Assembly (NCBI GenBank): GCA_030628225.1
Contig: DAOVRJ010000072.1
Coordinates: 1-10,291 of the forward strand
Reading direction: 5' to 3'
DNA: 10,291 nt
DNA from: Candidatus Zixiibacteriota bacterium
GTDB lineage: Bacteria > SM23-81
The notes below the pieces were generated by a model that saw only the letters and a program-made list of their open reading frames with translations, had not been told where the DNA came from and searched no databases. How positions within the stretch are numbered: position 1 is the first letter of the stretch; each line of letters opens with the position of its first letter. The translations under genes were made by a program, and so were the position numbers. Shown here piece by piece: positions 4,453 through 10,291 of the stretch.

Positions 4453-4508
4453 GGCAGATTTTTTCAGAAGTGGAGTTGAGAGCGGACCCCCCGGGTCAAA
4501 GAAAAATG

Positions 4509-4537
4509 TTGACTAAGGCCTTTTTTCTGCCTATTCT
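4509..4537 (+). promoter_or_regulatory. Candidate promoter for the methyltransferase
   Basis: TTGACT (4509-4514), a 17-bp spacer, then TATTCT (4532-4537) on the plus strand. It is divergent from the operon promoter, which is 56 bp away. The leader to the ATG at 4846 would be about 300 nt and would include the whole heptamer mosaic. The match is good but less complete than the two minus-strand promoters. Confidence 0.45.
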
Positions 4538-4603
4538 TCTTGGGGCTGGATGTGTTTTTGGATGTATTAAAAGTGGCATCTGGCGGCCTCGCTCTTTTCC
4601 AGC

Positions 4604-4683
4604 GGCAGTAGGCAGTAGGGGTTGATGGCAAAATGAAAAATGAAAAATGAAAAGTGCAAAGGGCAAAGGGCAAAGTGTAAATG
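4604..4683 (+). repeat. Heptamer tandem array, GNAAADK family, with GGCAGTA lead-in
   Basis: Two perfect GGCAGTA units (4604-4617) and a variant GGGGTTG are followed after 3 bp by eight consecutive 7-bp units in unbroken phase from 4628 to 4683. The units vary around GNAAADK: GCAAAAT and GAAAAAT at the left, GCAAAGG and GCAAAGT at the right. Bases 4637-4660 match 10226-10249 exactly on the opposite strand (24 bp). Phase is preserved although the sequence drifts along the array. Confidence 0.85.
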
Positions 4684-4696
4684 GCAGTCAAACTCT

Positions 4697-4811
4697 GCTT
4701 TTATGAATCTTGAGTCTCGAATCTCGGCATTCAGCTTTTACTAGTCTCTAGTCTCCAGTCTCTGGTCTTGCTTTTACCAGCATCCAACATCCAGGATCCA
4801 GAATCTCAATA
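4697..4811 (+). repeat. Three-module heptamer mosaic with GCTTTTA spacers
   Basis: The word GCTTTTA occurs at 4697-4703, 4734-4740 and 4770-4776, that is at 37- and 36-bp intervals. After each copy comes a run of 7-bp units specific to that module. Module one has TGAATCT, TGAGTCT, CGAATCT and CGGCATT. Module two has CTAGTCT twice, CCAGTCT and CTGGTCT. Module three has CCAGCAT, CCAACAT, CCAGGAT and CCAGAAT, and then decays. The spacing superficially resembles CRISPR, but the shared part is only 7 bp and the 'spacers' are themselves tandem repeats. Confidence 0.85.
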
Positions 4812-4845: not shown

Positions 4846-5949
4846 ATGCGCTACATTGGCAACAAGACGAAGCTTTTAGGATTCATCGACGAAGCCATGG
4901 AGACACTGGGCGTCCGCTCCGGGATCTTCTGCGATATCTTCGCCGGCACGGCCAGCGTGGCCCGGCACATGAAGAGCCGGGGATTCAAGGTTATCTGCGG
5001 CGATATTATGCGCTATTCCTTCGTCCTGCAGTGGGCCTACGTTGTGGTCAACACATATCCCCGCTTCGCCAGGCTGCCCCGGGAGGTGGGCATCAATGGC
5101 TCTTGGGCTGAGGGCCACACCCCAGGACCGCTGCAAAAAGTGGTCCAGTTCCTGAATCAGCAGACGGATGGAGAGGGGGGATTTATCTACCGAAGCTACT
5201 GTCCCGGAGGCACCGATGGCCGCCGACTCTATTTCACCGACGAGAACGGCAAAAGGATCGACGCCATTCGCCAAACTCTGGACGATTGGCGGTGCCAGGA
5301 GCGACTCACCGATGATGAGTACTATCTGCTTTTAGCCGCCCTGCTGGAGTCGACCGACGCCGTGGCCAACATCTCCGGGGTCTACTGCGCTTTCCTCAAG
5401 GAGATTCAGCCCAACGCAGACCGCCGGCTGTGCCTTCGTTCGCCGGCCCTGACCACCGGAAATCCCCAGCGGCACCAGGCTTATCAACGGGATGCCAATG
5501 AGCTCATCGCCAGGATCCACTGCGATATCCTCTACTTGGACCCGCCCTATAATCTACGCCAATATGCTGGAAACTATCATCTTCTGGAGTCCATCGCCGA
5601 GGGTTGGTCCTGTGGCGAGCCGGAAATATACGGAAAGACAGGATTGCGTCCTTACAAGCATCAGCGCTCCCGCTACTGCTCACGCAGAGGAGGCCAAGAG
5701 GCCCTGGCGGACCTGGTGGAGAAGGCCAGGGAGAAAGCCGGCTGTACCCATCTGCTGCTGAGCTATAATGACGAGGGAACCATTCCGGCACAGAGCATCG
5801 AGGAGATTCTCCGTGCGCAGGGGAGATCGGGGACTTACCGGAAGTTTCAGAGGGCTTACAAGCGTTTTCGCAGCGACTCCGATGGTCCCAACCGCCGGTA
5901 CCGGGGAGATCAGGTCACCGAGTGTCTGTACTATGTCCGGATCAGGTGA
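4846..5949 (+). CDS. Orphan D12-class (alpha) adenine-N6 DNA methyltransferase
   Basis: 367 residues. It would transfer a methyl group from S-adenosylmethionine to adenine N6 in a short DNA target. Motif X is at the N-terminus (RYIGNKTKLLGFI, 2-14) and the AdoMet-binding motif I is DIFAGTASVA (30-39). Motif IV is DPPY at 232-235, followed by NLRQYAGNYHLLE, the form common in D12 enzymes. A late strand is seen at LLLSYNDEG (303-311). The region between motifs I and IV (about 60-220) is probably the target-recognition part. The order X-I-recognition-IV is that of the D12/alpha class, and the length is in range. SD GAAGG lies 9 nt before the ATG. No restriction endonuclease is recognisable beside it, so it may be an orphan regulatory or defensive methylase. 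Its target cannot be read from the sequence. The gene converges on the unknown gene at 5987-6565 with 37 bp between them and no clear terminator hairpin. Confidence 0.88.
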   Translation: MRYIGNKTKLLGFIDEAMETLGVRSGIFCDIFAGTASVARHMKSRGFKVICGDIMRYSFVLQWAYVVVNTYPRFARLPREVGINGSWAEGHTPGPLQKVVQFLNQQTDGEGGFIYRSYCPGGTDGRRLYFTDENGKRIDAIRQTLDDWRCQERLTDDEYYLLLAALLESTDAVANISGVYCAFLKEIQPNADRRLCLRSPALTTGNPQRHQAYQRDANELIARIHCDILYLDPPYNLRQYAGNYHLLESIAEGWSCGEPEIYGKTGLRPYKHQRSRYCSRRGGQEALADLVEKAREKAGCTHLLLSYNDEGTIPAQSIEEILRAQGRSGTYRKFQRAYKRFRSDSDGPNRRYRGDQVTECLYYVRIR

Positions 5950-6565: not shown

Positions 6566-6610
6566 GATTTTGGGCCGGGAAGGAGTTTGTTGAATATCGG
6601 GAAACAGTAA

Positions 6611-6639
6611 GTAATACCCTTTTTCGAGGTCGTTGTCAA
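6611..6639 (-). promoter_or_regulatory. Sigma70-type promoter of the 192-residue hypothetical gene
   Basis: On the minus strand, TTGACA (6634-6639) and TATTAC (6611-6616) are separated by 17 bp. Transcription should start near 6604, about 40 nt before the ATG at 6565. The -35 flank CTTGACAACG and the -10 flank GGGTATT are identical to those of the promoter at 4424-4452, although the rest of the spacer differs. Confidence 0.7.
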
Positions 6640-6656
6640 GGGAAAAGTCCTATGAA

Positions 6657-6691
6657 GGGATTAGGGATTGGGGACTAGGGGTTAGGGAAAG
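6657..6691 (+). repeat. G-rich heptamer array, GGGRYTR family
   Basis: Five in-phase 7-bp units: GGGATTA, GGGATTG, GGGACTA, GGGGTTA, GGGAAAG. Five G-runs of three or four separated by 3-4 bases satisfy the usual G-quadruplex pattern. The array is in the 270-bp gap before glmM. Bases 6676-6688 match 6762-6774 as a 13-bp perfect inverted repeat. Confidence 0.8.
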
Positions 6692-6761
6692 GCAAAGAAA
6701 AGAGATTAGGGGACACGGAAAAATGAGGCATAGGTGTTGAAAGCTTTGGGGTTGGGAAGGG

Positions 6762-6783
6762 TCCCTAACCCCTAACCCCTTAT
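6762..6783 (-). repeat. Inverted partner of the G-rich heptamers (CCCTAAC units)
   Basis: Two exact CCCTAAC units and a variant CCCTTAT run from 6763 to 6783; on the minus strand they read as GTTAGGG. They belong to the same family as 6657-6691 and could pair with it to form a stem enclosing about 73 bp. They lie 50 bp before the glmM start. A short six-base repeat (CGAACA twice, then CGATTC) follows at 6794-6811. Confidence 0.75.
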
Positions 6784-6835
6784 TTCCATTTCACGAACAC
6801 GAACACGATTCCCTCCACTTCAGAAAGGTTATCTC

Positions 6836-10060: not shown

Positions 10061-10068
10061 AAAGTAAA

Positions 10069-10100
10069 GGATTCGAGGATTCAAGGGGTCAAGGGTTCGA
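10069..10100 (-). repeat. Octamer tandem array, TYGAATCC family
   Basis: Four 8-bp units in phase on the plus strand: GGATTCGA, GGATTCAA, GGGGTCAA, GGGTTCGA, then a decayed GGGAAAGG. On the minus strand the unit is TYGAATCC, one base longer than the YGAATCT heptamers at 4704-4724. The array starts 8 bp after the glmS stop, inside the transcribed 3' end. Confidence 0.75.
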
Positions 10101-10150
10101 GGGAAAGGGCGAGACTCGAAAAATTGTCAACCTTTAGTTTATATCTGTAG

Positions 10151-10202: not shown

Positions 10203-10251
10203 GCCTTTGATTTTGCATTTTGCATTTTGCACTTTTCATTTTTCATTTTGC
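10203..10251 (-). repeat. Heptamer tandem array, GNAAADK family, inverted copy
   Basis: Seven in-phase 7-bp units on the plus strand: a divergent GCCTTTG first, then ATTTTGC (three), ACTTTTC, ATTTTTC and ATTTTGC. Read on the minus strand they give GCAAAAT, GAAAAAT, GAAAAGT, then GCAAA-type units, the same order as at 4628-4683. Bases 10226-10249 are the 24-bp exact inverted match to 4637-4660. Confidence 0.85.
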
Positions 10252-10254
10252 ATT

Positions 10255-10278
10255 GGGGGGGCTGGGGTTGGGAGGGGG
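10255..10278 (+). other. Potential G-quadruplex motif
   Basis: Four G-tracts of 7, 4, 3 and 5 bases (10255-10261, 10264-10267, 10270-10272, 10274-10278) are separated by loops of only 2, 2 and 1 bases. This is a very favourable quadruplex pattern. It directly abuts the heptamer array and lies beyond the glmS terminator. Confidence 0.6.
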
Positions 10279-10291
10279 AGGTTTCCCCCTC
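10272..10291. repeat. Hairpin at the window edge
   Basis: GAGGGGG (10272-10278) and CCCCCTC (10285-10291) form a perfect 7-bp stem around a 6-base loop. The stem may continue beyond the window. No T-tract can be seen on either side, so a terminator role is undecided. It competes with the quadruplex motif for the same G bases. Confidence 0.5.

Follow-up and report, generated by a model that had tools for sequence, protein, structure and literature searches.

The window, that is, the whole stretch of DNA analyzed (10,291 bp), is the entire contig C224 of a draft genome (2.34 Mb, 306 contigs) of an uncultured Candidatus Zixiibacteriota bacterium. In it, a stack of 7-bp tandem repeat blocks has a divergent 494-aa ORF on one side and a gene for a D12 class adenine methyltransferase on the other. 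The nearest relative compared, Zixibacteria bacterium SM23_81, belongs to the same family but to a different genus. The features of the window, with the means by which each repeat was located (TRF, word search, lag-7 matches or the sequence itself), are as follows.

4509–4537, + strand: putative sigma-70-like promoter of the D12 methyltransferase gene, TTGACT-17-TATTCT
4546–4573, + strand: weak, candidate GGATGTN block, degenerate, on the purine strand, ending in the spacer TTAAAAG (sequence)
4604–4619, + strand: GGCAGTA units (family G, found in SM23_81 too; TRF)
4627–4681, + strand: TGAAAAR/TGCAAAR heptamer block (family C; TRF)
4697–4703, + strand: spacer GCTTTTA (word search)
4704–4727, + strand: TGARTCT/CGARTCT-type block (family A; lag-7 matches)
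4734–4740, + strand: spacer GCTTTTA (word search)
4741–4769, + strand: CYRGTCT block (family F; TRF)
4770–4776, + strand: spacer GCTTTTA (word search)
4777–4805, + strand: CCAGNAT block (family B, core also written CCARNAT; TRF)
4846–5949, + strand: D12 class N6-adenine methyltransferase gene, 3' of the array (PF02086, E 4e-31; SM23_81 ortholog 75% identical)
6654–6784, no strand assigned: inverted pair, an element of the system, with GGGATTA arm 6656–6676 and CCCTAAC arm 6762–6783 (TRF)
10067–10103: RGGRTTCR array of period 8 that follows glmS (TRF)
10206–10255, − strand: second TGAAAAR/TGCAAAR block, within a many-copy repeat (10203–10291) that reaches the contig end (TRF)

The first-pass annotation had described three copies of GCTTTTA at 37 and 36 bp, each leading its own heptamer block, and they lie just so, at 4697, 4734, and 4770. 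Elsewhere in the window the word occurs on the plus strand at 4872, 5328, and 9976, inside ORFs, and once on the minus strand, at 761; the chance that three of the six plus-strand copies fall inside 73 bp is about 0.003. Over 4697–4811, lag-7 matches number 62 of 108, whereas 2000 shuffles averaged 28.4 (sd 4.5) and never exceeded 43. The three blocks individually reach lag-7 identities of 0.65, 0.82, and 0.73, with 0.1–0.33 at lags 6 and 8. The period is therefore shared, as had been claimed, but one common register is not: the spacings of 37 and 36 are 2 and 1 modulo 7, so that the A, F, and B blocks stand out of register with one another. The blocks reported within 4697–4811 are all present, but the array begins further upstream, with GGCAGTA (4604) and TGAAAAR (4627–4681). 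The ends of the whole stack (4546–4805) are weakly inverted, 4546–4573 against 4770–4805, and the 4546–4573 block is possibly an outer arm facing the CCAGNAT block. The predicted RNA fold of the methyltransferase leader is unremarkable (z +1.5).

The two ends of the window recur elsewhere as well. Positions 1–813, apparently a duplicated coding stretch, have a counterpart on contig C27 (L028, 7964–8782) with 77% identity. The repeat at 10203–10291, with up to 20 matches in the sampled contigs, comprises a C-type heptamer block and then GGGAGGGGGAGGTTTCCCCCTC, with which a GC-rich hairpin-like repeat begins; that repeat is present at L010, L062, L072, and other loci.

Heptamer families and their spacer across the genome

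We compiled array statistics for 121 of the 306 contigs (780 kb, about one third of the genome), together with pattern counts for the whole genome. Intergenic DNA shows the excess 7-bp autocorrelation that the first-pass annotation had predicted, with peaks of 0.292, 0.275, and 0.274 at lags 7, 14, and 21, other lags of at least 4 lying mostly at 0.25–0.27. Lag-7 arrays number 18.3 per 100 kb over the 780 kb (other periods from 4 to 12: 0.1–5.5 per 100 kb), and in the sampled contigs 87 are intergenic and 14 coding. Being tandem 7-bp units that are mainly intergenic and exceed other periods, they belong with the heptameric short tandemly repeated repetitive sequences (STRRs), or long simple sequence repeats. 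The same words come back again and again: the 140 arrays draw on just 36 consensus words, where random words of flanking DNA would give 121–128, and GAGATTC alone is the consensus of 20 arrays, any random word reaching at most four. The main families are, on the pyrimidine strand, A (CGARTYT), B (CCAGNAT), F (CYRGTCT), D (CCCTRAY), and E (GTTCCGM), and on the purine strand C (TGMAAAR). Arrays of period 8 and period 9 are minor families, and such families (period 9, GAGAGTTNA) accompany the heptamers in both genera.

Placement of the arrays is that of repeats present in many copies. About 20% of intergenic DNA has a repeat elsewhere in the sample, and 58 of the 140 arrays (41%) are no more than 300 bp from a contig end, in regions that make up 9.4% of the sequence, a crowding typical of multi-copy repeats. 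Density is 1.3 per kb in convergent gaps and 0.8–0.9 per kb in the other gaps, divergent and codirectional; these similar densities led us to reject placement at promoters or terminators. RNA folding was likewise rejected as a general function (array regions have a median z of −1.5 versus −0.5 for controls, with 21% versus 13% below −3), and so was a CRISPR array. CRISPR arrays have identical repeats of tens of bp with unique spacers between them; here the repeats are degenerate 7-bp units, and what the blocks have in common is the spacer.

That spacer is looser than GCTTTTA. Its conserved form is CTTTT[AC] (on the purine strand [T]AAAAG(C)), and it adjoins blocks of the A, B, F, D, and E types. 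Purine-strand spacer words (AAAAG[CA], AAAGGC, or AAAA[AC]CC), counted next to 110 non-C blocks, lie just downstream of 40 and just upstream of 32, with 4 expected; the corresponding numbers for the opposite strand are 10 and 6. In pyrimidine orientation, [CT]TTTT[AC] stands just upstream of 42 of 161 pyrimidine blocks (4.2 expected) and, in SM23_81, of 9 of 49 (1.75 expected). Genome-wide, 26 A/F blocks are led by [CT]TTTT[AC] and 6 B blocks by CTTTTA, with none in reversed controls, and the shared spacer thus belongs to the system and not to the window locus. As a genome-wide signature the exact word GCTTTTA fails, preceding a block only four times in 780 kb, three of them in the window; the further spacer-led blocks that had been anticipated exist, at these 32 places, in the looser form. 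The combination of spacer and B block occurs at five places besides the window. Not all blocks have a spacer or an inverted partner.

Dispersed elements and their relatives in other genomes

Several families, as the aligned copies indicate, build discrete dispersed elements that consist of a purine-heptamer arm, a core, and a pyrimidine-heptamer arm. Six E elements share the core CACTCCATCCCAGATATTATTGTTTTTGCTTTTC, flanked by a GGARCTC arm and by an inverted GTTCCGM arm; the DNA around the copies is unrelated. Two of them (L103 and L010) have a right arm one 7-bp unit short, and the left arm of L010 is one unit longer. The five D elements read GGGTTAGGG-AAAAGCAAGARGACC, core, CCCTAAT arm, and their copies differ in length by 7 bp; the five C elements are longer. 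Within this one genome, then, E and D copies differ by single 7-bp units, the variation in unit number that slippage produces. Inverted same-family pairs with the purine arm leading number 8 in B, 6 in D, 6 in C, and 5 in E, and the opposite order was found once. Block orders recur too. The commonest order of like-oriented neighbors is A then B (10 cases; B then A, 5), and parts of the window's own stack are found elsewhere: the C-spacer-A part at L111 (78% over 92 bp with window 4628–4719), L089 (79% with window 4638–4709), and L124, the last copy standing directly before a start codon as in the window, and the F-spacer-B part (window 4743–4801) at L066 (84% over 61 bp).

The E, D, and C copies, all short, non-coding, and dispersed among unrelated flanks, are built as miniature inverted-repeat transposable elements (MITEs) are, and have terminal inverted repeats: E ends in TTGAGCGCGGAG...CTCCGCGCTCAA, and D and C contain inverted pairs. 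We nevertheless do not file the system under MITEs, because target-site duplications were not seen and a parent transposon was not found. Inspection by eye of the ends of the six aligned E copies gave no matching direct repeats, a weak test since the copies are nested. REP elements, which are moved by RAYT (Y1) transposases, have hairpins on either side of a RAYT gene. None of the four Y1 transposase genes of the genome could be tied to the heptamer elements; two have heptamer blocks nearby, probably not beyond chance. The IS200-like gene at L122 (1280–2150, contig C221) has the palindrome CCCCGCTCGTGAGCGGGG on either side and lies directly between TGAAAAR/TGCAAAR (C) blocks, and the RAYT-like gene at L124 (1290–2010, contig C179) has repeated GCCTCTCCTGAGGCG palindromes upstream and a CGARTCT (A) block just downstream; the genes' own palindromes are different sequences.

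In SM23_81 the methyltransferase leader is also full of blocks, behind a promoter conserved with that of the window (84% in alignment for 4499–4547), but the families and their order are different: period-9 GAGAGTTNA, GGATNCT, and GGCAGGA, then CGARTCT. The following gap (6566–6835) has the GGGATTA inverted pair in the window and a period-8 GGATTCGA pair in SM23_81. The content has turned over, the slot itself having been kept. Cores of E, D, and C did not turn up in those parts of SM23_81 and of two other genomes (G002 and G003) that were examined.

Beyond the family, (CGARTCT)3 is found in more than 103 genome stretches from many phyla, often next to arrays of other words, as against 2 of 2.9 million viral contigs, on which ground carriage by phages was rejected. 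In 4 of the 189 genomes from outside the phylum that were searched, GGATNCT is found with each of the four bases at N. We rejected a universal RRRRYYY rule for heptamers, since the reversed control was equally frequent in 186 genomes. Several Vibrio genomes have long pure arrays of GAGATTC, the commonest word in the window's genome, including a perfect one of about 30 units in Vibrio sp. Isolate32 (L197, 2230–2460). In a genome of another phylum (G097; L284, 785–1597, and L288, 1034–2170), heptamer blocks lie in frame within conserved genes, encoding KQILDTGSWMLDF (GGATNCT) and NAKCKMQNAKCKI (TGCAAAA) in DapF and SRIQDPGSRIP (GGATNCT) in RibD, in loops that differ in homologs or are shorter there by about 3–5 residues; these blocks are reminiscent of the Rickettsia palindromic elements.

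Origin of the stack and comparison with known systems

Occurrence of the words and the spacer at many places in the genome points to a small dispersed repeat system and not to one local copying stutter. We favor, with moderate confidence, the reading that the stack consists of short, non-autonomous, non-coding repeat elements of one system, dispersed among intergenic sites, with slippage-prone heptameric arms. A typical element would consist of a core peculiar to its family, with a purine-heptamer arm before it and an inverted pyrimidine-heptamer arm after it, and would carry the A-rich spacer (T)AAAAG(C)AA on the inner side of an arm. New copies would land at other intergenic sites, often next to or within older ones, producing composites such as G-C-A-F-B, and slippage in 7-bp steps would let arms grow, shrink, and change word. 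The window would then hold three pyrimidine arms (A, F, and B), each with its GCTTTTA spacer, in the methyltransferase gene's 5' leader, which probably tolerates the array without needing it; the array presumably has no function. A mobile repeat element, one of the origins proposed at first reading, is thus the origin we prefer, with movement read from the pattern of copies and not from an enzyme or target-site duplications; copying may be due to a trans-acting transposase or to recombination, and the families may all descend from a single ancestor. A bolder version, in which dedicated trans-acting machinery recognizes the AAAAGC spacer and spreads or extends the arms, and lineages carry heptamer "dialects" of one kind of system, strikes us as rather unlikely; unrelated phyla do share degenerate words (GGATNCT, GAGATTC, and TGCAAAA), in some cases in frame within dapF and ribD.

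Local replication slippage of 7-bp units, independent at every intergenic site and involving no movement, would account for copies that differ in unit steps and for arrays of their own words in many phyla, and period 7 is said to be favored among bacterial long-unit repeats (Mrazek 2007, as cited in PMC4679880 and PMC4692102). It is nonetheless unlikely, as independent births should have given about 128 distinct words instead of 36, and as the same words, spacer, cores, and multi-block orders stand at unrelated loci, which also bears out the earlier judgment that a single local slippage event is insufficient. If the array were instead regulatory, providing sites for a protein or RNA-binding factor at 7-nt spacing in the methyltransferase mRNA, its position after a conserved promoter and ahead of the start codon in both genera would be explained, and Beggiatoaceae heptamers before start codons have been proposed as translational sites (PMC4679880). 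We regard this as quite improbable: word content differs between the two orthologous leaders, array density in convergent gaps is about that of other gaps, and the leader RNA has no unusual fold. Protein sites every 7 bp, which the first-pass annotation had raised, gain no positive support, and registers break from block to block.

Nor does positive support exist for its other suggestion, a templated element, in which an RNA-templated or terminal-transferase-like enzyme would write heptamers onto DNA ends with AAAAGC as the priming or restart site. One spacer before unrelated words, words that change in phase within arrays, and an identical degenerate word (GGATNCT) in unrelated phyla would fit such synthesis, but mutation plus slippage account for the word changes, and no candidate template or enzyme is known, the search having covered Y1 transposases; we hold it very unlikely. 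An artefact of assembly or binning, which the fragmented draft and the arrays at contig ends might suggest, is hardly credible given that the independently assembled SM23_81 has the same families and spacer and that arrays also lie inside contigs with ordinary genes on both sides.

Several known kinds of repeat stand close to the stack. The likeness to cyanobacterial heptameric STRRs noted at first reading is apt, and the nearest cases also include the Xanthomonas (GGGANTN)n and Beggiatoaceae TAACTGA repeats. Xanthomonas heptamers (GGGAATC, heterogeneous as GGGANTN) and those of Nostoc (GGGGAYT; Rehm et al. 2015, PMC4692102) are likewise intergenic 7-bp units with fixed and variable positions and some inverted pairs, at intergenic sites that are kept between species as sequence and length change, but the description is of one word family per genome and includes neither a shared spacer nor cores nor modules from several families stacked together. 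TAACTGA direct repeats of Beggiatoaceae, cyanobacteria, and Bacteroidetes (MacGregor 2015, PMC4679880) are also intergenic heptamers, often near start codons and patchy over phyla, and in Microcystis are mixed with other heptamers; they consist of one exact word in short sets, and a spacer or hairpin element is not described. Filamentous cyanobacteria such as Calothrix PCC 7601 (cited in PMC4692102) have several tandem heptanucleotides per genome, and for these STRRs the literature covered does not report modular blocks with a common spacer. MITEs and the pneumococcal BOX/RUP/SPRITE clusters (PMC10969869) share the build of short, non-coding, dispersed inverted-repeat elements that nest intergenically; here, in contrast, the arms are tandem heptamer arrays, and neither a target-site duplication nor a parent transposase was found.

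In many bacterial genomes heptamers are reportedly the most abundant of the long-unit simple repeats. With a shared spacer, cores, and exact 7-bp steps to follow, comparison of strains of this family could separate the multiplication of units from the travel of arrays. In the open-access literature searched, neither a shared spacer nor elements with heptamer arms turned out to be described, though a description could exist outside it; within that literature, heptamer repeats are already known, and the shared spacer and the anatomy of the elements are what appears new here.
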